In this document: positions 16,393 through 51,524 of the stretch, piece after piece
Layout: every line of letters starts with the position of its first letter
Numbering within the stretch: position 1 is the first letter of the stretch
Source: Xiphias gladius
Taxonomy: Eukaryota > Chordata > Actinopteri > Istiophoriformes > Xiphiidae
Length of the DNA stretch: 64,000 bases
Direction of reading: 5' to 3'
Assembly: GCF_016859285.1 (NCBI RefSeq)
Contig: NC_053411.1
Coordinates: 18,844,722-18,908,721, forward strand
The notes under the pieces: model-generated
Databases searched by the model: none
Seen by the model: only the letters and a program-made list of their open reading frames with translations
What the model was told of the DNA's origin: nothing
Translations under genes and position numbers: made by a program

Positions 16393-17168
16393 CTGTTTAA
16401 ATGTCGATAACAAACGCAAGCCTCACAAAGCAGGATTAGTGGGTTTAAATCTGGAGCTGAACTGAAACTCCCCCGGGATGTTTACCAACTGACCATTACC
16501 TTCCTTTTTTCTTCCACACACGTCTGTAACAGCCGTTGGATTGTTTCCAGTCTGTCTGATCACCTGACTGCACCGTGCTCCCGGATGGCAGATATTTATT
16601 ATTAACGGTGGAAATGATGGACAAAACTACCAAAATAAGAGCCAATGATAAAACCAGGTCCAGCTGCTGTTGACTACGTAAAGGTTTGGGTCTTTTTTTT
16701 TTTTTCCCAAATAATACACGGCGTCAGGTAAGACGGACACTTTCACATTTTCAGGCCCGTGAAGATCACCAAAACGAACACACACTTACCAGGATCATCT
16801 CTGGCATCCTCGGCGGTGATTCCCAGGTCGATATCAAACTCCCACACATGGCTGTGGTCGGGATGTCGAGGAACTGCAACACACACACCCGTACAAATAT
16901 ATTTTTAAAATAACGACAATTAAGGCTGCAATGATTATTTAATTATTGATTTGCTCTATTTATCGTTTACTCTTTCGGTCTATAAAGTGTTCTCTAGTGC
17001 TCCCAAAGCTTCAGCTGACATATTTAAACTGCTTGTTTTGTCTGATTAAAAATATTCAGTTCATCCTAGATGAGAATAAACAAAACAGATATTCACATTT
17101 GAGAAGCAAGAAATGGAGATTTTTGACATTAACGATCAATTAATCGACTAATCGTTGTAGTCCTAGTT

Positions 17169-17239
<71 letters not shown>

Positions 17240-20200
17240 ACGTCCTCACTGTGCACGTCTCCTCTCTGTTTGTGTGTGATGTCCTTGTTCACCCTGTTGT
17301 TCAATGTGGTCGTTACCACGGAGATGGTGGTGGGAAGTGACGTGGTTGTCGGGGCAACCGTGGTGACTGTTGTGTCCACTGTAGTAGTAGTAATAGTGGT
17401 AGGTGTTGTTGGAGTTGTAGTAGGCAGATGGGTAGATGTAGATGTAGTCGTGGTAGCAGCTGTTGTTGTACTTGGAGTAGTAGTAGCAGAAGAAGTAGTG
17501 GCAGGAGATATACTTGAAATAGTTGTAGTAGCAGTAGTGGAAGGAGTAGTAATAGTAGTAGTAGTAGCAGTAGCAGTAGCAGCAGGTATTAGAGTGGTTG
17601 GTTTGGTGGTAGTGGCAGTTGTAGAAGTAGCTGGGGTAGTTGCTGCTATGGTAGAGGTTGTTGTGGTGGTTGGATGAGTGGTAGTAGTAGCAGTAGTAGT
17701 AGTGGTAGTAGCAGTAGCAGTAGTAGTAGTAGCAGTAGCAGTAGAAGTAGCAGTAGCAGCAGTAGTAGTAGCAGTAGTAGCAGCAGTAGTAGTAGTAGCA
17801 GCAGTAGTAGGAGTAGTAGCAGCAGTAGTAGGAGTAGTAGCAGCAGTAGTAGTAGTAGTAGCAGTAGTAGTAGTAGCAGCAGTAGTAGTAGTAGTAGCAG
17901 TAGCAGCAGTAGAAGTAGCAGTAGCAGTAGAGGCAATAGTAGTAGTAAGAGGAGGAGTAGCAGCAGTGGTGGTGGTGGGAGTTGTAGTTCTTGGTCTTTG
18001 TGGCTCCAGAGTGACTTTGTAGACAGCTGAAAGAAAACAGACTAACTCAGGACACGAAGCCTGAACTTTGTCACTGACTTAATGTTTCTATTAAAATCTC
18101 AGATGTTTTATTTTTGTGAATATTTTTGCCTTTTATTAGACAGGAAGTAGAGTAGAGTGAAAGTATAAATGGACTAACACATTGTTGATTTTGCTCTTTA
18201 CATTAGATTTTTGTCCCCAAATTGTTGCCCTTCAGATTGTAAATAGTACTGCCCTACAAAGGACTACAAATGACAAACTACAGAAAAAGTGAAGAGTTTG
18301 AAGTGTGAAGGCTGTTTAGCTAAAGTGTGATTGCTACTACAGCTGTGAAGCCTTACTTTTATGCTCTTTTTAGGATGAGGATTGACAGTTAAAACACACA
18401 CAAAAAAAAAGATACTGTTCTCTTTGTTTGGGCTAGTTCATCTGTTTTATCTTTTCTCCATTATGATTTAGTTGCTGCCTTTTTTATGTAGTATACCAAC
18501 CTCCATTACAAACTAAGATGTTGGAGCATTTCAAATTAATTTCTAGTCACAAGAAACGGGTCAGAAGGTGGTGGAGTGTTGCCCCTGCAGTTTGGTTACT
18601 GCTGATTTTACATGCTTGTTGTTTTTTGTAGAAGTTAAAACATTTCTTTATGAAATAAAACAGATGTCAAAAAGTCAGACTGTGGGCTTAACTCAGTTTT
18701 GACCAAATATGCAGTTACTGCGTTTTGGTTTTGTGGGGCAGAGCGGAGATGACGGGAAGATTAACAGCTACCAAAGGTGCCTTGAAACGAGGACAATGCA
18801 GTTACACGGTCAGCATCTTAAACCCAGGACACCGATATTTAGTGAAATTCATGATGCAAAATTGATGAATTGACAAAATAACAGTTTTACAAATGTCCAA
18901 ATATTTTCCAGGTGACATCCCTTTAGTTTGTACTTTTTGAACGATCTCTCTTCGGATTATGACCTACACAACATCCTGTTTTATCAGCTTGATAATGAAG
19001 TAAGACACCATCAACATGACATTTCAGTGGAGTTTGTAGAGGTTGTGACTTGGGCTCAGACTCCGGAGACGTGTTAAATGTTTGAGACGAGGAGGCGTTG
19101 TTACCTTTGCAGCTGCCTCCTTTACACCTGCACTTTGGAGAGGATGGATTGAGAGAGCAGAACGGCCGAGTGTCCTTATCTGGTAACAGAAATAAAGTTA
19201 TTATACTTGTTTGCTGCTTAATGAAATCATTACTTATTGGTTGGAGGTTGGAAACCAGCTCTTGGCATCAGAGAACAGTTTTAAGAAGAAGAAGCACAAT
19301 CGCAGCCAGAAGTTTCCGAGGGGGACCTGATTTGTCTCTCTGACAATGGTTAAATGGAAACTAGTTGTGACTCGGTGACAGTTTGGATTTTTATCCGACA
19401 AGTTAGACGTGAAAATCCAACCTCTCCAAGATTTAAACACAGCTGTGGAAACTGGCTTCAAATGAACTCTGATGAACATCAGAGTGCTTTGAAACCTGAA
19501 CAGGTAACATCATCGACGCCGGGTGACGTGTAGTGACTTCAGTTCAAATATCTATGCTTTCTATTCCATAACAATAACATGATAAACTCATTTCTAAAAA
19601 CTTCTGACGAGCTGATGTTTTCGGGGAAAAAAAGATGTTGATCCAACAAAAGCAATGTGTTACTTTAAACTGCATCATTTTACACAAATATGATACAAGA
19701 AGTCAAAACTAACACAAAATCTGAACCGTTTAAGGGCAGATTAATACAAACACTTGCAGCCTCACCGATGCAGATGTACCGTCCATTGATGTACGTGAGT
19801 TTGAAGCCGAGATGACATTTACACAGGAAGCTCCCAAACGTGTTCACACACTTCCTGCGATGAGGACACACACCGCGGCCCGACGCACACTCATTGATGT
19901 CTGCAGAGAAAGAGAGAGAGGTGGAGGATAAACTACGCCTCAGCCAGTGTTTCCTTATACAGGAGAACTGACTGACCGACACAGGTGCGTCTGTCTGGTC
20001 CCAGCCGTAACCCTGGCGACGGACAGGTGCATTGGACCACCCCCTTGGATACCTCACAGCCGTACTGACAGTTGGCATGGTAACAGGTTTGAGCATCTGT
20101 AAGCACACAAACACATCAATGCAAAACATTAATAAAAACCTGAAATACTTCAGTGGAATGAGTTTACGATCAGTTTTGAATTGAACTTTGACCATTTCCA

Positions 20201-22293
20201 CATCACACATTCTAACCCAAAGATTTTTCTTGAAAATGTTACTGGAAATCCTTAAATTTCCAAAGATTGTGAACCTGTCAGGCTGATGTTGGTGCACTTC
20301 GTTTAAAAGGATGCACAAGACATCTTGAATATTTCCAAGTGATGGAAATGTGCAGCCATAACAGAAAAACACAGTCTTGAGCCTTGCTTTAAATATTTCA
20401 CTCAGTGCTTCAGTGAAATTGGGAAATTGTCCTTTAACAGATAAAAAAAGGGGGATAACTTGGTAAAAAGGTCCAGGTTTACAAAGTGTGTTGGCTTTCC
20501 ATGAGCAAACACAACAAATGCATTTCCACTGATGATTCTACTTTTCTCTGATCATTTCTTTTACAGGTGTATGTTGTGAATATTAGCACAAAATCCTTGT
20601 ATGAAATTTTAACTAAAAACAAAACAACTTTGGAATAAATCCCCTAGATTTGATTAATGCTTTATTATTTCTATTTATATGAATCTGCTGTTACAACTGG
20701 AGCCTCAAATTAACTTCACATGTAGTTGAAATCACGTTGGGAAGGGGACAAGAGAGAACAATTAAAGTAACTTATCCTTTAAATTTCTCTTTTCCTGGCA
20801 TCTCGTGGTGCCATCTTACTAAAAGTTACATGATAAGTCTGGAGATTTTCTTCTATCCCTCCTCTTTCTGTGGCTCTCAGCTCTGAGCCCATTGGTTCCT
20901 ACTGAAGATGGAAATCTCTAAAAACACCTCACTAATATATAGTTTCATTTTGTCCTTTTAAATTTCCTAAAACAGCTGCTCACTATCGTTTTGGTTTTTT
21001 TTTTAAATCAGACAAAGGAGGAAATAGAGCATGTGTCGGGGACTATTTTCAGCGGTGGATTAATCCACATCTGGTGCTGTAGGGAGTATTTGTGTCAGCG
21101 GGACGGTGTGTGTGTGTGTGTGTGTGTGTGGGACTGAGTCTAAATAAACCACAGAGCGTATGTTGATGGTGATGAAGGCACATGTCACCCAGTGCTACCG
21201 TGTGACTCACTGTGAGGCTCACAGGAGCCAGAGATATGGGGCTGTGATACACACACGAAACTTGTGTTTTCTGGGAAGAACATATTTATATTTCAATGTA
21301 GGGGATCGAAAAAAAAGTTCTGTATTGTTTTGGTGTCGGTACAAAACTCAGAGGTTCCATATTGGCAATAGTATCAAAACATTTCAAACAGTACCGGCCC
21401 TGACCTGTGGAAGGTGAAAAGGAAAGGCAGAAGCCTCACACAAGGAAAACTAAGTGATAATCAGAGAGTCCTCTCTGACTGATAGACAGCGCTACGTGAT
21501 GGCTGACTGTCCACTTATGTGTGTGTGGCAACTCACTCCTGCAGCTGCCGTCCGGCTGCAGTGTGTATCCGTCCAAACAGTAACACTTGTAGCTGCCCAG
21601 TGTGTTCATGCAGCGATGCTTACAGGGCCGAGGCTTCAGACCACACTCATTCAGATCTGAAACCCAAACACACACACACACACACACACAACAGACGTGG
21701 GAGAGGGCAGGTAATCAAACATTAAACTGAGAACAGTCTTTCGCTCTGTTTTCACTCTTCTTGTCAACTTGTGGGATTAACCTTTGACTCTCAACGCTGT
21801 TAGTCACGAAGAGCATTTTGTGTGTGTGTGTGTGTGTGTCTGTGTGTGTGTGTGTGTGTAGTGTTAGATTACAGAGTTTGTGTATGAAGCCCCAGTATGA
21901 AGCCAGATGTTGCTTTATAGTCAGGATATGACTCATAATGTAGCCTCTAATCAGTAGATTAACACTGTGGGTGTAGGTGGGTGGAGTTCGCCTGCATGTG
22001 TGCATTCATCTAAGTTTACAAACAGTGGTATATGTGTGTGTGTGTGTGTGTGGGGGGGGTCTTCAGGTAAAACACGCCTTCGCAGGTCAAACAAGCATGA
22101 AAGGAATGTGTCTCTCTCGCTTTTTTTTTGTCAAAGCCATGATGAGAAATCAAATCTCTGTGAAACTACAGGGAAAAAACACACACACACACACAGTTAC
22201 CTTGGTTACAGGCCTTGCCGGTATATCCAGGGTGACATTTGCATCTGTCTGGTTCGACACACTCTCCATGTTTACAGCCCTGCTGACAGTGAG

Positions 22294-26050: not shown

Positions 26051-26834
26051 GTGTTTCCGCTACACTCGGAGCTGACATCCTCGCTGTCAAACCGCTCTGG
26101 GAGTCATGGGCCGAGGACACACACCTCACGGGAGCACGGAGGGTGGGGCCGTTGCCTGACGCTGACATTCACGTCCAGGTGAACCATAATACACGCGGAG
26201 CACAACCGGTCATAAACAGCGGGTATTCAGAGGCCGTGACCCGGCCGAGAGCGGCAGGAACACGCTGCTCCATTACGGGTCAAAAGCCCTGAAGTTGAAA
26301 TCCAACTCCAGCAAAAGTACACGGGTCATTAGCAGCAGCGTCCCGAAAGAATCCGAAGCCGAAACGCCCGTTATGCGGTAAAATGGCCTGAGATTGACGC
26401 GTGATTCTATCCGACTTTACGAGATTGACACTGCGTTAGTTTTAACCGTCTCTCAGACAGGTAGCGGGTTCGGTCCCCACCCAGAGGCTGGGCCCATCCA
26501 GAGTTTCCCCAGGTGAGTCCGAGGGATCACGACGGTCGCGACAAGTCACACAAATCGGGTTTTGGCTCTTCTTCTCTCCCTCGGCTGACCCAATGGGGAC
26601 CGGTGGTTTAATGTGTATCAACAGTGGTATAATTAAAAGGAGGAGAGGCCAGTTTGGTCGCAGACTGCACCGCCAGAGGGCACAGCTGTTCATTCGGGAG
26701 CAGACGCCTGGACTCATCGCTCTCCCTCCCCCAGTCTCCAAAGGTCTCTCCTCCAGAGCCTCTCCTCCCTCGGTCCGGATTCGGCAGCTCGGATGCTGCA
26801 GATGTCCACGACCTGTCTGTCCTTCAAAAGCAAC

Positions 26835-29800
26835 ATGAAGAAACAGCAAGGCTTTTGGTTTCTGCTCTGGGTAAGACGTGAAATCAAACATCTGCTCTTG
26901 GCTCCTCTAAAATTATTCATGAGAAAAAATGGATTTATTGAGATGTTAACTGTCTGAAATGTATTCGTTGTGATTTGTGTTTAAATTCACTTGAATTAAT
27001 TAAGGTAAACAATCTTAACTGTGGTAAAATGACTGTATTTGATGTTATTATCGGTAAATGTAGCTGGAACGATGATCCTGATGCTGCCTCGAGTGCATTT
27101 TAATTTGAAGATATGGCTCTAAAACACTTGATTTTTACTGTAGTCGCACTAAATTAGACAAAATTACCTTTACCCCGTTAGAAGGTCGAGAAGAACAGCT
27201 CTCCGAGTGCAGCACAGTAGTTACTGCGAGGAAGATTAAATATATAATATTGAGGAGCAAACATGGGTGCAGCAGCGAAGGTTTTTTATTAAATTCTCCA
27301 GCTTTCATTGTTTTGACTTTTTATTAATCCACATGAATCCAGATGTTTGTTTCTAAATAAAAAGCTTTCCCTTACTTTTGTTTGCTCTAAAAACAAAAAC
27401 ACGATTTAAAAGACAAAATGCGTCTTTGTTGGCCTGAATTCTTTTCTAAGTGATCGTGCACTGTACATGTCATTTTGTGTCGTCATGTGTTGGACAAATC
27501 TTCTCTTCCTCTCTTTAGTTCCGGCGACCCAGATGTGACTGTGTATTTGTGTGTGGTTGGGGTGGACCTCTGTTGCTGGATTATTTTCGGACGGCGAGTC
27601 ATTGGTCTTTTGTTTCTGGTCATCGATCACTCCTTTGTGTTATGTTCTGATCTTTCCAGGTGTATGTTTGCCGCATTGGTCCCGCATGTTGTTGGCACGA
27701 CTTGGACAACAGCGAGTACGACTGCTGGCCTCTTGACGGACCCAACGAATACAACATGATCGATTGTGGAGGTGAGAAACTGACTGGCTGATAACTTCAG
27801 TCGGTTCATGTTTTATTGGGAACTCAGACTTTTTCTCATTTCAGGTTTAGCGTTATCGGGTGATTTTATGTTCAGATACATTACTGAGATGTTTCATTAT
27901 CAGTCTAATGAGACAAAGCAGGCTGGGAAAGTGAAAAGCAGCCTGTAGACTTTCAGCATTGAAGTTATAGTTAATTTAAAGCCCCCGAATGCTTGGCTTC
28001 AAATCTGAAGTATTTCTCTATAACATTAAACATTCATGACTAAATAAGCATATTTAGATATCAATGATTAAGAGTGTAACAGTAAAAAACGAATCTGCTT
28101 CATCTGGACTTTGTAGGTGTGATTTTGACCAGATGTTACTGACGGTAACCAAACAACGCACCGCCCTCGGATTCTGACTCAAACGATGCTAAACTCAGAC
28201 CGATGCACAAAGAAAAACGCAAAAACAGAAATCTGTCGGCGAAATAACCCAAACTGCAGTAACTTCAGCAGAAAGCAGCAGGATCCTAAAGCTCACATTT
28301 ATGTTATCCCCATTTCATCTTGTGATCAGATTTCAATATGCAAATCAGTTGGGCAAGGCTGGTATTGTCTCTCTGTGTCGCCCAGGTCTGGAGATGGCCT
28401 GGGTAGTCCGTCCTCCTGAGACGGTGAAGAGTGGCGAGTTCTTCAGCGTCACATACTCGGTAGCGGCCCAGGACTCTTTCTACCACTGGGCTATCGAAAA
28501 CCACATCTTTACACACAGGTTAACTCACCTGTTTATACTGGTTACCTTAGGGTTTTACGGGATTTAAGCTCAATTCACTGACTTACACACCACTTTGCAC
28601 TAGTTTTAGACTGAATTTAGACAGGACCTGTACATTCTACTGAGCTCGGAACTGGTTCTTATCGTGGTCTGAACTGGTCTGGTGTGTTTATATGTATAGT
28701 TCCATAGTAAATGCTGAAGCAGCTCAGAGGTTCTGCGAACATCACGACTGTCCGGCCAACTGGAAAGACGCTGACGGAGAAAACTGCTGCATTCATCACG
28801 CTAACATCCACTCCTGTCCATTGGGATACATGGTACACATTTGAATGTTTATCTTTTTTTAATTTTCTTTACTTTTTCTTACTCACTCTTTGAGCTGTGG
28901 CACTTTCTGATAGTTTACGATAGTTTCTAACAATCCACAGCTAGCTCCCACGTATTAGCTAATGTGATGTTGATGGATTCCAGTAAAAGCACAATTTTAC
29001 CAATTTAAATTATTAATCATTTAAAGTATTAGTATTAGTAAATACAACTGAGCATTTGTGGAACTGAATATGGTCTATTTTGGAAAAGCTTTGTCTGCTA
29101 AATTAAAGTAATTTGATTTACAACTCTAAACTACATCTCTTTAGTCTTAAAGACTGAGGGTTTCAATAACATTCATCATGCAGTTGTGCTAACAATAATG
29201 GGCAGATACCAGAAACATTAATGTTAACACATCCTGAAAGAAAAATCTTCATCATTGACCAGTAACTCCAAATATTTTCCTCCAAAATGTAGTGGGGAAA
29301 ATGGTGAAAGTCTCTCAAGATGTTGTATGTAGTATGTAGTACCAGGAGTATGCTGCATGTCGCCGGATTTTTAATTTTCATCTGCAGATATTTATTTAAA
29401 AGTGCCACACTTTGACTAAATTGCATTTTCAAAAAAGATATTAAACCAATAAACATTAAAAGAACTAACTTTAAGACATCAGAGAGCATCTGTGGCCCCT
29501 GGATTCCCGACGATGGAAAAATCTTCACACACACAATCTCTACATCCGGCAAGATGACCCAGACCAACTGGACTGCCAAGGTAAGTTATTTTTATCTGTT
29601 TAGCCCGATATCAGATACAGTTTCTCCATGGGCTTTAAAAGGCCCCCAGCAACAGCAGTTTCCAACGCAGCTGAACCTCTACAAAAACTCCCCAAAGTCT
29701 TGAAACATGAGGACAAATTGAAAAAACTTAGAAGGAAAAGCTCGACAATTTGGGCAATACACTTATTCGCTTTACTTGCCCTAAGTTATATGTTCAAATT

Positions 29801-31776
29801 GATACCATTCTCATATCTCTCCAGCTAGCTAAGTTAGCTTTGCACAGACACTGGAAACAGGGAGACAACTAGCCTGGCCATGTTCAAAGAGACTGAGCCA
29901 GCACCTACTGGCACCTGTAAAACTCATTAAATAACAGAGATCTTGTTTCTTTAATCCATACAAAAACCAAAGTGTAAAAACAAAAAAATCAGCGTTTTAT
30001 GGGCAGTTACGCGCTGAACGACTTCTCCCTTGGTTGGTGGACAACTGGTACTTTTTTGCTTCCTCAATTAACTAACAGCATTAGATCACGTCGTCAGCAG
30101 CAGCAAAGGATGTATCCTTTACTTGTACATGAGCAAAATTCTCAAAATCAAGGTAGAGCAATACATCTTACATTGCCATGAATACAAGGTGCGTCATGTG
30201 TGATTGGGAGCTCAGTGTGTTAAGAATATAATCTAATTCAAACTGACCAGATAGATTTTGTTATTAAACAGTTAGTATATGATAATGGCTCTATATTATT
30301 CAATAACCTTAAAATGATCGTGTGCTTTGCTATTCTAAGATGCACAAGAAAGATCCGGCGTATCATAGTGCATTTGGAGAGTAATACAGTTGGGGTTTTG
30401 CTCCCTCATTAATAGTCTTTGTAAAGGCAGGCCTACAAAATACTAATCTTTCCCAAATTAATGAAAAAGAATGAAAAATTTACACCATTATCTGCAGACG
30501 ATACACTACTTCATGTCACTAATGTTTCTATCTCTCTTCCAAATTTCAAAGGGAAAACCTAATGGACTAGTCAATCATTAGTCCTGATGCCAATTAATAG
30601 GACAATACTCATCACCGAGGTCCCTACACACTAGGGATAACTTTAGTTATTGTAAGGGCAAACTCCCAACTGTAGGCTTCGGTTAATTTGATGTTAAATT
30701 CAGGACCTGGTTAGTCAGGACCTACTAAAACAAATGCTCTGTCTTGCAGGTGGTTTTGCTCCATGCTGGTTTAACCTCACTCATCGCTCACATACGAGTT
30801 GGTCGCATGCAGGTTGCTCTGGAGGCCAAGAGCACCGTGCTACCAGCTGTAGGTAGGTTATATTTGTGTATGTTCCCTCCCTACTTCCTTGCATGACCAT
30901 AGAAACAAATACAATGGACATCATGAGACTGACAAAGATAGCTAAAACCTAATTTTACCAACCACATGGGGATAAATGTAGGTCAATTTCATGTTTAATT
31001 TATAAAACCTTGGTGTAACCGTTTTCAGTCATTTATCTGGGTCTGGATCGCGGTGTTAGCCCAAGTGGCCCAAATGTCCTTCTGCCCAAGCACATCCTGC
31101 AGCTCCTCCTGGATGATCCCAAGGTGATCACAGGCCAAATGGGATATGCAGTATAATCTCTCCAGTGTGTTCTGGGTCTGCCCCAGGGTCTCCTCCCAGT
31201 TTGATGTGTCCAGAGAAGTCCACAGAAGGGTGTACAGGAGGAGACCCAATCAGATGTTTAACCATCTCGACAGGCTCCTTTCAAAATGAAGAAGCAGTGG
31301 TTCTGCTCCAAGCTCCTCACTCTGTCTCTAAGGCTGAGTCCAGACACCTTACCAAGGAAGCTTATTTTGATTGTTAGTTCCTCAGTATCCATCTTTGGGT
31401 TATAACCCAGGGCTCGTGACCATAGGTCACCTATGAAACACAAATTTATCGGTAAATCGATAGCGTCACATTGTGGCTCAGCTCTTCGGGGGACAGAGAT
31501 TTCAGCTACCATCAATGGTCATATTACCCTCATCGTATTGTCCAGTAGTCTCTCCACTCCAAACATAGAGTTGACATTAGCGAAAAAGAGAACAGGTAAC
31601 AACTTAGTCCTCTTTCCTCTCCCATCTTAGTTTGTGGTGATGGTGTCTGTGATGAGGCAGAGCTTTGTTCCACCTGTCCAGCTGACTGTGGTGAATGCCC
31701 TATGACCCCAGCCACCAAGCTGGCCATCGGTCTGCCGCTCAGCCTGCTCTGCCTCTGCTTCATACTGACTGCTGTC
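26835..31776 (+). CDS. Cyclase exons 1-7: ectodomain and membrane helix
   Basis: The protein starts [16 protein letters not shown], a short signal-peptide-like stretch. The ectodomain has about 17 cysteines: a cluster near the start ([16 protein letters not shown]), a second in exon 4 ([18 protein letters not shown]) and a juxtamembrane module [20 protein letters not shown] in exon 7. A beta-rich middle contains [20 protein letters not shown]. One N-glycosylation site, NWT, is in exon 5. The helix is [20 protein letters not shown]. The exon 5 acceptor (ACATCAGAG|AGC) has a poor pyrimidine tract but is the only one that keeps the frame open. Confidence 0.8.
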
Positions 31777-32271
31777 GTGAGAATTTACACAACACAACAC
31801 AACACAACACACTTATGCTAACGGAATCCCACCAAATACTCAGTATCAATCCATAAATATCAACCAAAGAATCTGTTTCACGTAGTGGCTGAGGTACCAG
31901 AAACAGAGGCTGTTGTGGGACGAGAGTTGGATCATCGACTTCTCTACAATAAAACAAGGTACTGTAACAGTCCAGATCAATGTTAGTAAATGGACCTCGA
32001 ATTGAGATTATTTTGTCAAACTACAATTCCAAAGGTCAAGAATGAACTTTCACACTCAGGTCTAGACTGGTCTAGACTGATTTGGAACTCAACAGGTCTG
32101 AAAATGGTACGTACAGGTCAAGAGTTGATCTAAAGATGTCTACAGCTGGTCCAAAACTGAAGCCAGTCAAAACAGGTCTGTAAGATGTAAACTGTTCCAA
32201 ATGTACAACGGCGGGTGTCAAAATTACTGACCATAACATACATGTATATATACACACATATACGTATATAC

Positions 32272-32302
<31 letters not shown>

Positions 32303-35300
32303 TATATATACACACACACACATTTGTTTTACTGTTAAAGGTCATATAAAGGATAATTCAACTATACTGTGTTTTTTATTGATATTTGCTGTTCAACTTA
32401 AATCAGGTTAACCAAATGAATTCATAATGCTTTTAGAAAAACCCTTATCTAGAGTAACGCTTCCCTCTCTCTCTCTCTTTCTATAGATCAGGAAGCTCGT
32501 ATGACCTTGGGCAGTATAATGAGTGTACCGGTAGGGAACAGTGGTGACAGTAACACCAGCTGCATAACTGCTCTCAGCTCGTGTACGGGACAACAAGGGA
32601 CCAGAAAAACACTGTTCACCTGCACCGGCATATAGTATGCTACCTGTTTGAATACCCCCTGTTTACTTGGACCTCATTTAAGATGGCAATACCCTTTGAT
32701 ACTGCCATAGAAATAAGAGGGGAAAAAAGCAGTTGAACATATGCCAGAAAAAAGTTTAATATGACTGTTCATTCATTCAAGATGTTTCTAGACTGTTTCC
32801 TTTTTAAAAAAATATAGTTGTGGGCATATTACATATATATTAGAGATTCAGCAGCAAAGAAATCACAGTGCATGAGGGGAAAGAGAGATGGGGAATGGCA
32901 TAGAACAAAGGTGACTGACTGATCTTAAACTGGGGAATGATAGTCAGTGCTTTCTACCCCCAGGTCAGTAGGGAAAGTCTACAGTGTTCTTCCATGATGG
33001 AGACAGCTGGCCGATAAGGGTGTTTGGAAGTACATTAAAAATAATTTTCTTCTCCAGTGACGGCAGGACCGTGGCCATCAAGAGGATTCAAACAAAGACT
33101 TTCTCTCTGTCCAAAACCATCAGACAGGAAGTCAAACAAGTCAGGTGACACACACGCACAAACGCACTCATCCTCCTTCCCCATTCAATACAACTCGGTC
33201 ACATTGCAAATAGGGTTTTTTGGCTCTCTGTCTTTCCGTCTCCAGGGAACTCGACCACCCCAACCTCTGTAAGTTTATTGGGGGGTGTGTTGAGGTACCA
33301 AACGTTGCCATAGTGACAGAATACTGCCCAAAAGGAAGCCTTAATGACGTTCTTCTTAATGAGGAGATCCCGCTTAACTGGGGCTTCAGGTAAACTCTCA
33401 AACACGCCAAGTCTTATTTAAGATTTAAAAAAAAAAAAGAATTTAAACTGAATGACACCAGTTAATCTGGGTATGGAAAATAAATAACTCCAGTTTTATA
33501 CACTCTGACCGTGTTTGTCTGCCAGGTTTTCCTTCGCCACAGATATCGCGAGAGGGATGTCATATCTCCACCAACACAGGATCTGTCACGCTCGACTCAA
33601 GTCTCTAAACTGTGTCTTAGATGACCGCTGGGTTTGTAAAATAACAGGTAATATGAACTTTATGCTGAGGTGATCACTTTGTCCAAAAAAAATCGAATGA
33701 AAATAGTGTAAAAAAGTGGAATAGTGGTAAAAATCAAAAACTGCGAAACCTATATTCTACTGTTTATCAGACGTATCATCTAACATTGCGTTACATTTTA
33801 CATCAGAAGTGTAAACGCTGACATGTGCTCTGTCCTGTCAGATTACGGACTGAGGACGTATCGCAGGGATGACGGGGCGGAGCCACTTTCCACTTATCAG
33901 CAGAGGCTCTTGGAGGTGTACATGCCACCCGAATTTCATAACTCTAACATGGAGCCGACGCTGGCTGGAGACGTGTTTAGGTATTGCACATAAACTTGTT
34001 GTAGGCGGACTCGTCTCAGGAGGACTAAGCGGTGATTTACATGAATCCCCTGGAGACCTCAGACCTTAATCGTAACCATGACCTGCCTGACTCCAGACTT
34101 TATCGTAGCCTTACCTAAACCAAAAACCCAGTCTTCAAATTTCAAGTACCCTAAAATGTGTTTAATCTCACCTTGTGGGGACCTGTTTCATGTACCCAGA
34201 CGGGACACGTTTGTACAGGATGTGTGCCCACAATGTGATTGAACACAAATATACCAACGACACAGAGTACACTCAGTAACTTCTGTACGTCTTCCCAGTT
34301 ATTCCATCATTCTGCTGGAGATAGCCACTCGCAGCGACCCCGTCCCCGTAAGTTACAATCTGACGGGTTCACTCCGCTGTAATTCTGCAGTCATTCTTTT
34401 TTGTTTTTTGGAAAAATAACACACTGAAGGACAAGTGTATAAATACCAAATTTTCAGGTCGAGGAGTCTAATCTGGAGTGTTCCTGGTGTCCTCCTCTAC
34501 CTGAACTGATCTCTTGTAAGGCCGATAACACCTGCCCATGTCCTGCTGACTACGTAGAGGTGTGTATACGCTGTCTAATCTGCTTTTGACCAACCATCAT
34601 TTAAAATGTTTATGTTTTATGAATGTATCTTTGTTTTGAATTTTTTAAACATATTTATCTTTTGTTTTTTATTTTTTCACATTTATCATTTCTATTTAGT
34701 GTCTGCAGTTGTTTTGATGCTTGCTTAATGAATTGCACTAACTTCTATGAAAGGTGCCATAAAAATAAAGTTTGACTGACTGATCGATTGCTTGATGGAT
34801 GATACGATGATATAAGAGTGATCATTTTATAATTTGTTTGTTTGTATACTAAGTTGTCAGCTAGAACGTTGAAATAAGATTATGTTCTGTTTTGTTAAGT
34901 GAACGAAGAAAAATGCTAACAAGAAAATATTAGGATATTATTCATTCATTTGCCTTTGCTAAATGCTGAGGTAGGTTTCGTTAAACATGAAGGTTACTGG
35001 TAAAAACGCAGTGAATGCAACATTTTCAATTTCAACACATCTAAATGTCTATTAAAATAAAACAATAATGTTACTTTGGTGTAACTATCAAATATCTATT
35101 CCGTTTTTCTCTCTTTTGTCCCATGCGTGTGTCCATAGCTGATCCGGCGATGTCGCTCTCATAACCCCACCCACCGACCAACCTTTGAACAAATCAGGAA
35201 GTTTGTTCACCGAATCAACCCCGTTAAAGTCAGTCCGGTGGACATGATGATGAACCTGGTAATGAGCTGCATCGGCCACATACCAGACATCCGATTAATC

Positions 35301-38300
35301 GTAATTTAGTATCACTTTGCCTTATATTGTATGTGTTACATACGTTATTGGGCCATATTTTATTCAGTGCATTATATTGTGACTTTATATCATTTACTTT
35401 CAAACACACAGCAACAGTGTGAGCTGTCTTAGCTTAAAACGGACAGGGGGAAAAGGGATATTGAACAGTTTCATTTCATTCTGGTTTGTTTTCCTCCCCC
35501 ACATGAGCACGCATCTCATAATGGGAAAGCTGTCTATACTGTATTGTATCATATGAACTGTTTTTAAAATGACAGCTCATTTTAATACGAAGGTACGACT
35601 CTCTGTGTTTCAGATGGAGAAGTACAGTAAACATCTGGAGGTGCTGGTGACCGAGCGGACTCAAGATCTGATGCACGAGAAACAGAAAACTGACAGGCTG
35701 CTCTACAGTACGATACACACGCTTGTTCATTATGCCGGTTTGGTTACTAACGTGATTCATTTCTGTCCAAAGTTAAACCTGCAACACAAAATGACATATG
35801 CCAGTCATGTATAATTTCATTATGTCGATTCATGCTTTTAACAATAATAATAATAATAATATGATTCTGATGACATCAGTTGGAAAAAGTGCCTTTAAAT
35901 GTTTCATGAAGAATGAAACTGTTTAAATATTCACTCTTTTTCCTTTATGCCTCTCAGGTCCCATCTTACTGTGCTATATGTGAATATTGTTTTAATATTT
36001 TTAGTTTGAAATTCATTTATTCTGTGACATTAAGTGTTTCCATTCACCTGTTTTTATGCAAATTTTCCATCTGCAAAATAACAAAACCCAATTATTTTCC
36101 ACCACAAAAGTGGATGGAAATCCTCATACGCTCACTTTTTTTTTTGACCATTTTCTGGTAATCTGGTTTTTATGTTTGGATGTAAACTTGACTGATTTGT
36201 CAAATACTCCAAGCTGCCACTTGGACAGGTGTCTGTTGTAAAAGAGATCACATTTCTCAAGAGATTTTTTGGTTGAATGAAGGTTAATTAAAATGAAAAC
36301 GTTTGCATGTTTTGATTGCAGGTATGCTTCCTAAACAGGTAGCTGACGACCTGCGCCAAGGAAAACCGTCACAGGCTCAGAGTTATGTCAGCGCCACCAT
36401 CTTCTTCAGGTAGAGACAGAAGGAAATAACAACTGTCTGATCAACAGATTGAGAGTTTACATGTGGTAGTCATGATCTTCCAATTTCAAATATAGACATA
36501 TTTAAGTAACTATGTCCCAAGAACGTGTACTGTATGTTTGAGGAGATGTTATGTATGAGTATAACTATATATTAGGCGTGTGTGGGTTTTGACAAAGAGA
36601 GAAACAGATTAATTAAATGATAATCTTTTGTTTCCCCATGTACTATACCTCCTGTCATTGTAGAGTAAGGAAAAATCTAAATTAAGATGTCGTCAAAGCA
36701 CTGTTGGAAATTTCCCCTGTAAAGTTTACACTTTAGTAAAGTTTAATTTAAAAATCTCTGTTGAAGACCAAAGAGGTGAAACTCTCCTGCATTTTACTGC
36801 AAAAACAAAAATTAGACAAATTTTAGAAGAAATCTGAACATAAATCCAAACTTGTGGATCAGAACTTAGTTTTTTCTTCTTTTTTTTCTCACGAATCATC
36901 TGATGACCCATCAGATTTCTCTGGTGACCCTTCGGAGGATTCCGACCCCTAGGTTGAGAAACATTAGACTAAACTGGTTAACTAAACTAGGGGTATTTTT
37001 ACATTGTGGTATTGGTACTTTTACGGAAGTAAAGGCCCTGAATACTTATGTGTGCAGTGATATCGTGGGCTTCACTCAGCTGTCCAGCAGCAGCACTCCT
37101 TACCAGGTCGTGGATTTCCTCAACAAACTCTACACGACGTTTGACGACATCATCGACAACTACGACGTCTACAAGGTGGAAACCATTGGAGACGCCTGTG
37201 AGTGACACACACACGTTTGTACTTCTTTCTTTGTGTTGACCCTCAGTGACATAATGCATTCCCCGGCCCCTTAACCTAACCTGAAGCCTAACTCTTACCT
37301 AACTCTAAAAACAAGTTTTAGCAGCCCTTTGAAGATCTGTCCCGAAGTGAGGACCGGCCAAAAGGCCTCACTTTCCAAAAATGTCCTCACTCCCAAGGTC
37401 TAAAACTGAAACTGGTCCTCACAAAGATGGATGTACATTATTGCTGTCTCCATCACATTATATTCCCAGTCATGAGTGCCTCACACTGCTCAGCCTCCTG
37501 GGCAAAGCTTATGCCAGGGTGCTGGAAAGGAGGCTCTGACCGATTGTCCAACGCCGGATTCAGGCGGCGTTCTGGAGGAGCGGTGTGGATTTTGTCCTGG
37601 CCGTGGAACAGTGGACCAACTCTTTACCCTTGCAAGGCTACTTGAAGGCTCCTGGGAGTTTGCCCATCCAGTCTGCGTCTGCTTTGTTGGCTTCATCAGA
37701 CCGTGACTTTCAGGATGCGAGTCAGCTCCTCCAAGTCTAAGTTGGTCATGGTTCTCTTCAGGAAAACGACGGATTGCTCCTTACGGGCTGTGACAGTTTC
37801 TGCCCCAAGTGAGGGAGTTTAAGTATCTCGGAGTCTTGTTCACGAGTGAGGGTAGGATGCAGCAGGAGACTGACAGGTGGATCGGTGCGGCGTCAGTAGT
37901 AAAGCAGATGTTGTACCGGGCCGTTGTGGTGAAGAAGGCCCTGAGCCAAAAGGCAAAGCTTGCGATTTACCATTCGATCTACGTTCCGACCCTCATCTAT
38001 GGTCATGAGCTTTTGGTAATGACCGAAAGAGTGTAATTGTGGATAGAAGCGGCTGACATGACTTTAAGTGGGTTGGCTGGGCTCAGCCTTTGAGATAGGG
38101 TAAGGAGCTCCAACATCTCGAGGGAGCTCAGAGTAGAGCTGCTTCTCCTTCGCATCAAACAGGGCCCGTTGAGGTGGTTTGGGCAACTGATTAGGATCCT
38201 CTTCTGGGCACATCCACCTTGTAGGAGACCCCGGGGGTAGACTCAGAACGTGCTGGAGATTATACATCTGATCTGGCCTGCGAAGGACTCGGTGTCCCCC

Positions 38301-39918
38301 AGGAGTAGCTTGAAATCATTGGTGGAGAGAGGAAGGTCTGGGCAAAAAAAAACAAAAAAACAATTTCAACAAAAACTAATCATTGTAATGTTTATGACGG
38401 TAGCATTTATTGTTGTATCACTGTCTGTGTGTGTGTGTGTATAGATATGGTGGTGTCAGGCGTGCCCCAGGAGAACGGGATCCTCCATGCCTCAGAGATC
38501 GCCAGCATGGCTCTGGACCTGGTGGGGGTCTGTCGCACCTTCAGGATCCCTCACAAACCCAAAACACAGCTGCAGATACGAGCTGGGATACATTCTGGTA
38601 CACGCAGACGTTGTCGGAAAACTTTTTACAAATCAAAATATATTATTTAATCTATTTTGCCTCTCTATTAACGTCCTTCTTTGACTCTTTAGGTCCAGTG
38701 GTTGCGGGGGTTGTAGGGACTAAGATGCCTCGCTATTGCCTTTTCGGAGATACAGTCAACACGGCATCTAGGATGGAGTCCACCAGCCTGGGTAACACTG
38801 CCATGCTGGAAACATCTATACTTTACAATGACTGTGGATGCTACAAAATGTATTCACGCTTACTCTCTTTGTCATCGCCACATGACGATAATGTATCAAA
38901 GATATAACAAAAAATAGCTAGACCTGCAGGCAGATATCGTGGGGTCCAATCGCCCGACACAATTCAGAACTGAAGGCGGACGAAGCCATCACGTAACAGA
39001 GCTTAAACTTAAGTTGTTTAACACGCATTTGTTTTTATGCGTGAGCAAGCAGAGACGCTCTCCTGCGCGACGCAAGAATCTGATCCAGTGTTAGACCACA
39101 AGGGCCAGAGAGTCTGAGTCATTACGCACCTCATTTGTGACATGGTACTATAGGTACTGCAATACTTTTAAGACCTAAGTTCACTGATTTGTTGAACCAC
39201 AGACAACACGATGTATGACTGTATGTATTGTACACTAAAACTACATGATACTATGCGTAGAATAAAATGTGATTATGAAATAACGTGACCAGAAATTATG
39301 CAAATGTAATTAATTAATACAAATGTAAGTGTAATTTTGAAGAAGTAACAAATATTTCCTACAGCACAAATAATTCAAATATGAAATGGAATGGTATTCA
39401 AAATAAACTGAGTTTAATTTTGAAATATTTGTAAATATTGAAATGAAATATCGTGTTGTTGTCACAGAAATGAACTGACACTAATGGAAGTAATGTAACA
39501 TATAAATGACCTGTACTTAATGTACGGTGTCTTTGCAGCCCTGAAGATCCAGTGCAGCTCCAGTGCATTTTACCTGCTGGAGGAGATTGGCGGCTACGCG
39601 CTGGAGTGCAGAGGGGTGCTGCAGGTCAAGGTGAGTCTCCCACTCCCACCACAGTTCAGTTTTGTCGGACACTGGGAGCACTGGGAGCTGCCCAGTAACA
39701 CTCTGGACCTGACATGTTTCTACCAGGGGAAAGGTGACATGGTAACTTACTGGTTGGAGGGGAAGAAGACTTCTCTGGTCTCCAAGGAGGTCAGCCCGGT
39801 CACCAAGACGACCAAACACATCACCATGGAGACGGAGAAAGAGATGGAGAAAGAAGAGGAGCTGTATTCATCTATGCCGGGGATTCTGAACGACGATCTG
39901 CTCCTGGATCCGGCCTGA
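26835..39918 (+). CDS. Receptor guanylate cyclase with atypical ectodomain
   Basis: Single-pass membrane enzyme predicted to make cGMP from GTP. 23 coding exons, 866 codons, all GT-AG with consistent phase: 26,835-26,870; 27,660-27,771; 28,386-28,518; 28,700-28,832; 29,485-29,580; 30,750-30,852; 31,631-31,776; 31,886-31,958; 32,487-32,634; 33,058-33,144; 33,246-33,389; 33,526-33,647; 33,842-33,980; 34,299-34,347; 34,458-34,559; 35,139-35,258; 35,614-35,707; 36,322-36,409; 37,058-37,197; 38,445-38,597; 38,693-38,791; 39,539-39,630; 39,727-39,918. Order: short signal peptide, Cys-rich ectodomain (to about 234), membrane helix 235-254, kinase-homology domain about 277-581, coiled coil 582-612, cyclase domain 613-810, acidic tail. 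The ectodomain is about half the length of the natriuretic-peptide type and unlike it. An in-frame ATG at 26,793 is an alternative start. The exact vertebrate orthologue is unknown to me. Confidence 0.92.
29840..30060. repeat. Dispersed repeat in cyclase intron 5
   Basis: Contains ACACTGGAAACAGGGAGACA, CTAGCCTGG and TTTAATCCATACAAAAACC followed by GGGCAGTTACGCGCTG, wording I know from a common teleost interspersed repeat. No coding content. Confidence 0.55.
30130..30700 (+). mobile_element. Decayed L1-like (Tx1-type) reverse-transcriptase relic
   Basis: In broken frames the plus strand gives [16 protein letters not shown], resembling the DQTGFIKNRQ region, and later SADDTLLHV, the YADD-type catalytic motif, then LMPINRTIL. 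Frames are interrupted by many stops, so it is inactive. It lies inside intron 5 of the cyclase gene. Confidence 0.6.
31045..31440 (-). mobile_element. Antisense 3' fragment of a fish LINE
   Basis: The minus strand reads [16 protein letters not shown] and further on [17 protein letters not shown], matching the C-terminal end of a widespread fish non-LTR retrotransposon reverse transcriptase. It is truncated and frameshifted, within intron 6. The related sense fragment at 37,465-38,330 is probably from the same family. Confidence 0.65.
31886..35258 (+). CDS. Cyclase exons 8-16: kinase-homology domain
   Basis: A pseudokinase as in all receptor cyclases. VAIK lysine 335 is kept, the HRD motif is replaced by HARLKSLN (425-432), and DFG is DYG (445-447). 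No glycine-rich loop is visible. [13 protein letters not shown] and [11 protein letters not shown] match the family. Exon 15 adds five cysteines (CSWC at 515-518, then 527, 533 and 535) where I recall no such cluster in the natriuretic-peptide cyclases. Confidence 0.88.
32243..32325. repeat. (TA)n-rich microsatellite in cyclase intron 8
   Basis: Imperfect TA, CATA and CA units. Open frames here read Tyr-Ile repeats and are not genes. Confidence 0.85.
34690..34800 (+). mobile_element. 3' tail of a non-LTR element
   Basis: Contains AAGGTGCCATAAAAATAAAG followed by TTGACTGACTGATCGATTG, the usual form of fish LINE/SINE tails with an imperfect short tandem repeat. No open frame. Confidence 0.45.
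35614..39918 (+). CDS. Cyclase exons 17-23: coiled coil and catalytic domain
   Basis: The signalling helix [20 protein letters not shown] leads into the catalytic domain. Metal-binding aspartates are in FSDIVGF (643) and IGDAY (687). Guanine-selecting residues are Glu 683 (KVETIGD) and Cys 755 (PRYCLFGD). Asn 762 and Arg 766 are in VNTASRMES. All are present, so the enzyme should be active as a homodimer. The tail after TYWLEGKK is rich in Glu and Lys, ending DDLLLDPA. Confidence 0.92.
36870..37050 (+). repeat. Dispersed repeat family C abutting cyclase exon 19
   Basis: Shares GACCCTTCGGAGGATTCCGA, CCCCTAGGTTGAGAA and TTGGTACTTTTACGGAAGTA with the reverse-oriented end and body of the copy at 46,983-47,465. 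It stops within about 10 bases of the exon 19 acceptor TGTGTGCAG at 37,057. Confidence 0.65.
37225..37432 (+). repeat. Dispersed repeat family B copy
   Basis: Contains AACCTAACCTGAAGCCTAAC, GTGAGGACCGGCCAAAAGG, ATGTCCTCACTCCCAAGG and GGTCCTCACAAAG, matching the copy at 930-1,095. Confidence 0.65.
37465..38330 (+). mobile_element. Truncated fish LINE reverse transcriptase
   Basis: Broken plus-strand frames read [20 protein letters not shown], then [20 protein letters not shown] and [18 protein letters not shown], the central and C-terminal reverse-transcriptase region of a common fish non-LTR element (Rex- or L2-like; family not certain). Several frameshifts and stops mark it as dead. It lies in intron 19 of the cyclase, between two catalytic exons. 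Confidence 0.75.
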
Positions 39919-48300: not shown

Positions 48301-48990
48301 CAGGAATGTTCCTGTGTTTGTTGTTATCTGCCGCAGTAAAACGAGCGTTTACCGATGGTGACCAATGGTCCTGGGTGTTAAATATAAAACTGATAAACGT
48401 GTTTGGAAGCGAGAAGAGGAGAGAATATCTGAGCCTGCCGGTTCACTAAATGCTAACAGCTCTGTTCGCTGGTGTTAGCATGTTAGGTCAGTAGCAGCTA
48501 TAAATGTCAGTAATGTAGCGTCTTTCTCTCCGGTGGTTTGATTCGGTTTTTTTTTAATTTTTCTTAATTTTTTTTTGTTGTAACGGAGAAAGAGAAACCA
48601 GAAAGAAACTTAACGGAGGGTGAAGGTAGCTTAGCTCTCCGTAAGCCTCTTCTCCTGCGCCACCACTGAAGAACTAACTTATGGTCCAAACTGAGGCATC
48701 ATCAGGTGACAAAACTGTCCAGCGGCAACTGTTGTTCCTCCTCATCAGGTGTAGTTTTTGTTAGATACCTTAGAGCCTACATGTACCATTCCTGAAGTCA
48801 CAGAAACATAACAGAGGTAGCATTAACCAAATCCCCAATACAAGAACAAGACATTCAGCTGCTTCTGATATGATCTGTGGTCACAGTCTGATATGAAAGC
48901 TACAAGAAAGTTAGCACTCAGGAAGTGAGAGAAGAATGGTCACGTGATCCTCCTGAATCCATCTCACGGTCTGTTCTCTGTGCTCAGGTG

Positions 48991-51524
48991 ATGGCGCCCA
49001 CGCGGATGAAACTGCGTGTGCGTCGCCGTGATGGTGCAGGTGCAGCGGGAGGAGGTCAGCCGGCGGAAGAGGAGAGGAGTCGAGAGAGCAGCAGTCGCAG
49101 CAGCAGCAGGAGGAAAAACACCAGCAACACGTCCACCCCTGCTGCCGCCACCTCCTCGCCTCCCACCTCCTCTGCCTCAGCCTCGGCGAGGGCGGTGGTG
49201 GCGGCAGAGGACGCGTCGCCTGACTCCAAGTGCCCCATCTGTCTGGACCGCTTCAACAACCTGGCGTACCTGGACCGCTGCCTGCACCGCTTCTGCTTCC
49301 CCTGCATCCAGGAGTGGTCGCACAACAAGGCCGAGTGTCCGCTCTGCAAGCAGCCCTTCGCCTCCATCCTGCACTCGGTCCGTGCAGAGAACGACTTCAA
49401 GGAGTACACGCTGCGACCGGCGCCCGCCAACAGCAGTGTCGCCGCCACTGTGGCGATGGTGGCGGCGATGGCGTCGGCGGCAAGGAGCGACCACCAGATG
49501 AGGTTGATGCTACGGAGGCACAGGGTGGCAGACGGCGGAGAGACCACCACGAGGAGACGGAGGAGGGAGAGGGGAGGAAGAGGAGGAGGAAGCAGGAGGA
49601 CGGGGGTGTGGGAGTGGTATCTTGATTCTCCTCCTCTTCCTCTCCCTCCTCTTACTCACCATCCCGCCATCTCTCCCGTGGTTGCGGAGGACAGTGGGGA
49701 GGGAGAAGACGTGGAGCAGCAGAGGATGAGGGGGGGGGCAGATGTGGCTGAGCGTGGGGTGATATTTGAGGGACTGACGGGGCTGGGGGGGGCAGTGGCA
49801 GCAGCCCCCAATGACCGGGCCTCACGGCGGCTGATGACCCGTCTGGCGGCAAGGCAGCGGTTGCAGCGAGAAGGCGGAACTGTGCGGCGACTGAGGGAGA
49901 GAGAGACTGTGGCCTTCCGCCGCGCCCTCTACCGCTGCGGCATACGGGTCCGCGGCGTCGCCGGGGTCAGCGGTAACCAGGGGCAGCAGTGTGACATCAC
50001 AGCAGAGAGCTTCCGTCGTAACCCCGGCCACCTGAACAGACTCCGCCCCTGGCTGCGGCGGGAGCTCACCGTGCTGTACGGTGCACACGGCACGCTGGTC
50101 GACATCGTCCAGCGCATCATCATGGCGCAGCTGGCCCGCCACGGCCTGGAGGACACACCCACCATCGAAGAAGAGCTGCGACCGTTCCTGTTGGCTCGTA
50201 CCGACCACTTCCTGCACGAGCTGGTCAGCTTCGCCCGCTCGCCACTTAGTCTGGAAAATTACGACCTGCAGGCGGTGTACGAGCCGCTGGCCGCCACCCT
50301 TGAGCTGGACAGGACCAGCAGCCCCTCCGACAGCAGCTCCGTCATCGCCATATCAGAGGGGGAGGAAGAGGAGAGCCGGGCGGGAGGAAGGTCGGAGGAG
50401 AGGGCAGGGGGCGCTCACAACGATGTCATCCCAACAGGAAGCTGCCTTAGCCTGTCAGCCTGGGACGACGAAACACCGGGCCCCTCCTACTCCACCGCCG
50501 AGTCGTCGTGTTCGCTCGCCCCGCTGTCATTCAGCCCCGCCCCACAGGGGACAGCCAACGAGGAGGGGGGAGAGAAGCGGGAAGAGGAGGCGGAGGACGA
50601 GTGTCTGATCGTCGGGTACAAGAAGCCCATCGCGGAGCGGACTCCTGAGCTGGTGCAGCTCTCCTCTGACACCGAGGAAGAGGAGGACAAGGAGAAAGGG
50701 GAGGAGAAGACGGGCGAGAAGCTTCCTCCCCTCCCTTCCACCACTCCTCCTCTTTCTTACCTACCCACAATCCCTCCCTCCACATCTCATGCCTACCGCG
50801 AGGAGCAGGACAACAAGCCGAAGGAGAAAGATGGCGAGGCGGGCGGGCGTCACTCACGTACACGCTTGTGGTCGGGCAGCTCTGGACGAAGCCTGGAGTC
50901 TGTGTGCACGCTCAGCCCGAAGGAGCAGCGGCGGGAAAGCTGGAGAGACAGGAAGCAGTCCGGCAGCGAGGTGGTGAGGGAGAAGAGGAGGAGGAAGAGG
51001 AGGAGGAGAGGGCGGGAGAGGAGCGGCACCCTGTTCAACCCAAACCGCTCCATTTATCCCGCAATGATGCGCCGCCGCTCCCACTCCCCCTCACCGTTTC
51101 ATACCAGCGTTGAGTCCGGTTCGCCGCTGCCGCCCAGCCCGCCCGACTCCAGCTGGGAGTACCACTGCTCCCCTCTCACCTCCTCTGTGTCCTCACCGTC
51201 CCGCTCCTCCTCCTCCTCCTCACCCCTCGGCTCCTCCCCGCAGCCGTCGTCGCCGCCACCGCAGACGCCGCCGACGCCCTCGCTCTCCCCAGGCAACGCC
51301 TACCACAGAGAAAAACCTGGCGGGAAGAGGAAGTACAAGAGCCGCCACCTGGACAGCAATGACAAGGACCCCACCTGGAGGCCGAGCAGCAGCCTCCGCA
51401 GGGAGAAGAGGAGGGAGAGGGGGGAGAAGGAGAGGAGGAGGAGGAGGGGGAGAGATGGAGGGAGGAGAAGAGAGAGGCCCAGGAGGGAGGCTCACAGGGA
51501 GAGCGCTAGTTATTGTGGAGAGAG
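48991..51524 (+). CDS. topors: topors exon with RING and TOPORS domain
   Basis: 845 codons, very GC-rich. The zinc ligands are C81, C84, C97, H99, C102, C105, C116 and C119. The exon ends SYCGE plus AG, donor AG|GTGAGA. Tracts of Arg, Glu and Ser near the end are typical of the RS-like region. Confidence 0.92.

Follow-up and report, generated by a model that had tools for sequence, protein, structure and literature searches.

We have identified in Xiphias gladius a pair of genes that probably represents an additional single-pass class of receptor guanylyl cyclase (GC) in fish, separate from GC-A to GC-G, duplicated and held under purifying selection, a reading to which we give a probability of about 0.8. 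The pair joins an ordinary enzyme half to an unusual outside. Its first member lies at 26835..39918 on the plus strand of the window, by which we mean the whole 64,000-nucleotide stretch that was analysed, on contig C12 (genome size 690.8 Mb); its second member lies on the minus strand of contig C6 at about 15.17-15.18 Mb and was found by a genome-wide cyclase-family search followed by tblastn. If this reading is true, a vertebrate receptor GC need not have a periplasmic-binding-type ectodomain, and the pair offers an orphan receptor whose read-out, cGMP, is already at hand, making both ligand and tissue directly testable.

Rebuilt from the sequence, the window gene consists of 23 GT-AG exons in consistent phases, all on the plus strand, which splice to 2601 nt (866 codons plus a stop) with no internal stop; the gap-free 866-codon protein that the sequence-only reading had obtained by joining 23 exons is thereby recovered. 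Exon 1 (26835..26870) carries the start codon and the signal-peptide core, with further in-frame ATGs upstream of it, the first at 26793, and exon 2 (27660..27771) carries the end of the signal peptide and the start of the ectodomain (WHDLDN...DC). The ectodomain continues through exon 3 (28386..28518), exon 4 (28700..28832), a Cys/His-rich segment that begins FCEHHDC, exon 5 (29476..29580) and exon 6 (30750..30852) to exon 7 (31631..31776), which encodes both a CGDGxCxxxExCxxCxxDC module and the transmembrane helix. Exons 8-9 (31886-31958 and 32487-32634, spanning 31886..32634) encode the juxtamembrane region, exons 10-16 (33058..35258) the kinase homology domain, exons 17-18 (35614..36409) the dimerisation linker and the start of the catalytic domain, and exons 19-23 (37058..39918) the remaining guanylyl cyclase catalytic domain and the C-terminal tail, with the stop codon at 39916-39918. 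Within intron 19, at 37480-38340, a decayed non-LTR retrotransposon-like stretch with reverse-transcriptase-like wording was seen by eye.

The acceptor of exon 5 lies within an AG repeat. The start at 29485 given by the sequence-only reading uses a GAG acceptor 2 bases past a frame-shifting CAG, and within the 48 bases searched the sole alternative in-frame acceptor has its last base at 29475, so that the exon would begin at 29476 and gain three residues (TSE ahead of SICGPW), bringing the protein to 869. In the C6 copy, an acceptor with a better pyrimidine tract, read by eye, gives four extra residues before ICGPW, and the start at 29476 matches the exon length in one reading of that copy; at its exon 4-5 boundary the spliced aligner picked a different site pair from the by-eye reading. 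We prefer the acceptor ending at 29475 over the start at 29485, although this choice is uncertain.

By hydropathy alone, the protein has a signal-peptide-like start (residues 6-16) and a single membrane helix (residues 235-253), which suggests a type I receptor. Pfam searches with E up to 10 returned a kinase-like domain and a cyclase domain, the latter at 4e-66, whereas HNOBA matched with its last 39 positions only, at the linker. The kinase homology domain is a pseudokinase without the catalytic Asp, reading HARLKS at residue 425 (HGRLHS in the C6 copy) where HRDLK would stand. Two solved chains, 9bcv (GC-A / NPR1) and 8fx4 (GC-C / GUCY2C), both of which we take to be human, match the window protein at 496 and 337 bits respectively. 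Around the residues for metal, base and transition state, the catalytic domain and solved GC-A align with no gap; these residues are presumably D643, D687, E683, C755, N762 and R766, all of which are the same as in GC-A in the alignment. The description of the cyclase half as canonical agrees with the Pfam score and these key residues. A cyclase domain, a pseudokinase and a predicted signal peptide, ectodomain and single membrane helix together place the protein among the receptor (membrane) GCs, as far as its sequence can tell.

The ectodomain is Cys-rich, measures about 207 residues and ends in a small disulfide-type module. There are 17 cysteines in residues 1-234, including C16 in the hydrophobic start, so that the earlier figure of about 17 stands for that segment; it does not stand for the mature ectodomain, which would hold 16 on our assumption of signal-peptide cleavage near residue 21. 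The module, CGDGxCxxxExCxxCxxDCGxC, occupies residues 206-227 in exon 7, just before the membrane helix, and is therefore juxtamembrane as first described.

The C6 copy repeats this arrangement. Exons 2-7 were each matched by tblastn, in the same order and on a single strand, followed by the membrane helix, the pseudokinase and the cyclase. Spliced alignment of the two genes gave identities of 131/207 residues in the ectodomain, 42/97 around the membrane, 157/248 in the pseudokinase and 194/241 in the cyclase domain; the aligner put false small exons in the C6 copy (near the start, near residue 94 and at the end), and the exons were read by eye. Between residue 253 and the cyclase end, all 16 introns, the last at residue 803, fall at the same codon and phase in both copies. 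Inside the ectodomain four of the five coincide; the ambiguous one is the exon 4-5 intron, which the aligner placed one base off phase in the C6 copy. A tiny candidate exon 1 of that copy, the sole one to pass our filter, has a hydrophobic stretch and a consensus donor and lies 531 bases upstream of exon 2. The mature cysteines are conserved at 14 of 16 positions, the two missing being the adjacent C22 and C23, which leaves an even number, and H109, H127 and H131 are kept in both copies together with the adjoining C123-C124. Ectodomain divergence between the copies at codon positions 1, 2 and 3 is 0.28, 0.18 and 0.52, with dN at 0.26 and dS at 2.7, near saturation, a pattern that shows purifying selection on the ectodomain. 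The C6 copy is apparently an intact gene. Comparison of the open frames of the window with 35 kb of C6 (the 25 kb around the copy and one 10 kb stretch farther out) revealed no match resembling a neighbouring gene common to both copies. Upstream of the C6 copy, at C6:15185000-15194999 on the minus strand, we noted by eye an open frame resembling a lysophosphatidic-acid-receptor-like GPCR.

The genome-wide search gave at least 135 cyclase matches, with 150 of 165 candidates scored. Besides the C6 copy, 19 loci of the same genome were aligned (11 membrane GC, 4 soluble GC and 4 adenylyl-cyclase-like), and the spliced aligner was checked against the window gene, with its exons 7-23; the remaining, mostly paired cyclase loci were judged to be adenylyl cyclases by their exon pattern, left unaligned, and may include further copies. 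Identity over residues 596-815 reaches 85-87% with solved GC-A for three loci and 86% with solved GC-C for two more, and because the genome carries such loci the label of vertebrate receptor GC fits. The retinal, GC-G (C9:5.04) and soluble labels of the remaining loci are our own assumption.

The introns of the cyclase domain, numbered here on the window protein, distinguish the pair from these loci (pseudokinase introns of distant loci were unreliable and were unused). An intron at 681, phase 0, is found in all 11 other membrane GC loci and in all four soluble GC loci, and one at 616, phase 2, in 10 of the 11; both are absent from the pair, which carries introns at 612, 641 and 688 instead. 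Introns at 739 and 772 are common to the pair and the 11 other membrane GC loci, and the one at 803 to seven of them.

The tree combined 19 sequences: both members of the pair, 15 loci, solved GC-A and solved GC-C, with the four adenylyl-like loci omitted. It recovered the GC-A, GC-C and retinal groups and separated the pair on a branch with support of 99.5/100, so that among the GCs of this genome and the two solved chains the pair forms its own clade, although the topology tests are not unanimous. Placing the pair as sister to GC-C was rejected by the AU test (p 0.004) and not by SH (0.07), the stricter of the two tests, and the same held for a position sister to the retinal group (AU p 0.008, SH 0.054). 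Both tests allowed the pair as sister to the GC-A group (AU p 0.32), to C9:5.04 (AU p 0.18) or to C18:1.17 (AU p 0.57), or beside the soluble GCs and outside the other membrane GCs (AU p 0.71), the last of which ties with the best tree. The pair may stand at any of these positions. The separate receptor lineage proposed in the sequence-only reading is supported by the C6 copy with its same ectodomain, by the distinct introns and by the tree, with the topology tests in partial agreement.

The pair could descend from an old receptor-GC lineage of animals, shared with invertebrates, that survived in fish but not in tetrapods. Such a lineage is one form, concerning age, that the additional class might take, and we consider its chances to be even. 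The placement beside the soluble GCs and the divergent intron pattern both favour such an origin. On the other side, the membrane GCs of vertebrates and invertebrates have been sorted into six clades (PMC12611267), none of which is described like the pair in the parts of that paper covered here.

It is improbable, in our judgement, that the pair arose within the fish lineage from a natriuretic-type receptor (GC-A/B) whose ANF domain was lost and replaced, through exon shuffling, by a different ectodomain. GC-A is indeed the best solved match, and a position sister to the GC-A group stands among the placements allowed above. The one nesting of the pair within that group that was tried also passes SH (0.07), but it is rejected by AU (p 0.003), and nesting the window gene there without the C6 copy is rejected by AU (p 1.5e-6) and by SH (0.005), the sole SH rejection. 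Introns at 616, 658 and 681 are common to the three natriuretic-type loci and missing from the pair, and a recent chimera is disfavoured since the introns at 616 and 681 should then have been kept. The existence of the C6 copy would moreover push the swap back before an old duplication. As a control, ANF_receptor exons were found upstream of the three natriuretic-type loci, tens of kb off and linked by position only, and within about 10 kb upstream of three retinal-type loci. Among the matches listed, with 115 of 227 candidates scored, none lay near either gene of the pair, and five other membrane GC loci (two of GC-C type, C9:5.04, C12:19.8 and C18:1.17) likewise had none nearby; with that number scored and those five loci missed, the absence near the pair is weak and one-sided evidence.

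The possibility that the gene is signalling-dead or decaying is very slight. The acceptor of exon 5, within its AG repeat and with a competing frame-shifting site, is the kind of feature that decay might leave, but it stands against an open frame of 866 codons, catalytic residues that are the same as those of GC-A, and the purifying selection between the copies.

We also considered whether the ectodomain exons are coding and belong with the cyclase. Trained on exons 8-23, a codon model placed the in-frame score at the top of the three forward frames in all six of exons 2-7, with one of the seven ectodomain exons (exon 3) above the 95th percentile of stop-free noncoding DNA. When the open frame of the RING gene was added to the training set, the in-frame score was again the top forward one in six of six, none of the seven exceeded the percentile, and a reverse frame scored higher in exons 6 and 7. 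Taken singly, therefore, the codon scores of the ectodomain exons are weak. We assign exons 2-7 to the window gene because the C6 copy repeats them and because the ectodomain is under purifying selection; on the sequences compared, the C6 copy is decisive evidence for the join of ectodomain and cyclase, and the ectodomain is, by the same comparison, coding and conserved. A gene-model artefact, in which ectodomain exons of one gene were joined to cyclase exons of another, could draw on the weak exon 5 acceptor and the weak exon-by-exon codon scores, but it is scarcely credible given that exon order and strand recur in the C6 copy and that module and membrane helix share a single exon.

The earlier reading, in which this ectodomain differs from the periplasmic-binding-fold ectodomains of GC-A to GC-G, is supported by the sequence searches. 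Residues 1-300 gave no Pfam match with E up to 10, and no ANF_receptor match was obtained by Pfam in the ectodomain of either copy. Searching the ectodomain against PDB sequences returned a phmmer best E of 0.089 and nothing by profile, NCBIfam gave no match, and the only Pfam signal was a lectin-like one at E 0.049, below its cut-off and in one of the two copies. Six short peptide patterns of one sequence, which reach close relatives only, were also scanned against prokaryote and viral contigs. The prokaryote scan (one genome per species, 84,980 species) gave 47 pattern matches, of which six were confirmed, in bacteria and archaea; all fall at the module or at most 11 residues before it, with 57-74% identity over short stretches. 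The motif could be re-read in five of the six confirmed loci and is repeated in three. Viral contigs yielded two pattern matches, neither of them a relative. The bacterial and archaeal modules have the same cysteine spacing as that of the window protein, but the resemblance to its ectodomain stops at the module and at most the 11 residues preceding it. The module is a recurring cysteine motif that tells little of the ligand, and the ectodomain before it was found only in the window gene and the C6 copy among the sequences searched.

The receptor would act as a homodimer, in which a stimulus on the ectodomain might move the membrane helices through the membrane-adjoining module; the pseudokinase would relay the signal, and the catalytic domains would supply cGMP to cGMP-gated channels or to kinase G. 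As the stimulus we would guess at a ligand that is a small peptide or protein, and, as a second choice, at direct chemical sensing. Exon 4 has conserved His residues among its cysteines, and a metal or redox role for them is only a thought. A reading in which the class predates vertebrates, was lost in tetrapods, and uses its Cys/His-rich ectodomain to sense a metal ion, redox state or pH directly, not a hormone, draws on H109, H127, H131 and C123-C124 being kept in both copies; we hold it to be doubtful.

Several other features were noted in the window. On the plus strand, a RING-finger open frame at 48892-51528 is followed by a Ser-rich one at 54342-56744, topors-like by eye, and Pfam confirmed the RING in the former and found nothing in the latter. 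A C2H2 zinc-finger open frame at 8814-9569, also on the plus strand, has seven stretches that match zf-C2H2 in Pfam. On the minus strand, 19683-20537 contains a calcium-binding EGF domain by Pfam and nearby, 17140-18078 is a long open frame, rich in Thr, that runs over simple repeats; the two are perhaps one gene.

The GC family was surveyed in 2006 (PMC1435932), the GCs of mouse and zebrafish have all been set out in a tree (PMC4480006), and seven membrane GC receptor subtypes have been characterised (PMC10061024). No such receptor is described in the open-licence literature searched, including the parts covered of these three papers and of PMC12611267, nor in those of PMC6878697, PMC7400543, PMC6787079, PMC6170504, PMC7674705 and PMC4749565, which hints weakly, and for open-licence literature only, that the receptor is unpublished. 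Fish genome annotations may well list such genes under a natriuretic-receptor-like name.

Among known systems, NIT-GCs, membrane cyclases of placozoans and invertebrates that vertebrates have lost according to the part of the source covered here (PMC7400543), resemble the window protein in carrying a sensing part other than ANF on a membrane cyclase. They differ in that their helical NIT domain sits between two membrane helices, whereas the window protein has one helix and no NIT match. Another membrane cyclase of this genome, at about 1165298-1182828 of C18 on the minus strand, has the NIT-GC plan in one large open frame: two membrane-like stretches, identified by eye, flank an outside of about 250 residues, and the cyclase follows. 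No pseudokinase was found in the 20 kb that cover it, and Pfam gave no NIT domain. Soluble GCs have a heme-binding N-terminal domain and no membrane helix; the window protein has the helix, and its likeness to them in that region is the HNOBA tail match only. GC-C / GUCY2C has the same intracellular plan as the window protein, with 53% of residues identical in the part of 596-815 that was compared. Measured against GC-A to GC-G as a whole, the pair has no ANF_receptor match by Pfam, falls in none of the known clades in the tree of this genome's GCs and the two solved chains (the topology tests being divided), and does not have the introns at 616 and 681; the natriuretic-type loci of this genome, in particular, have other cyclase-domain introns and form a separate clade. 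GC-A / NPR1 has its pseudokinase, linker and cyclase arranged as in the window protein, with 63% identity over residues 596-815, but its ectodomain is an ANF_receptor domain about twice as long as the one described here.
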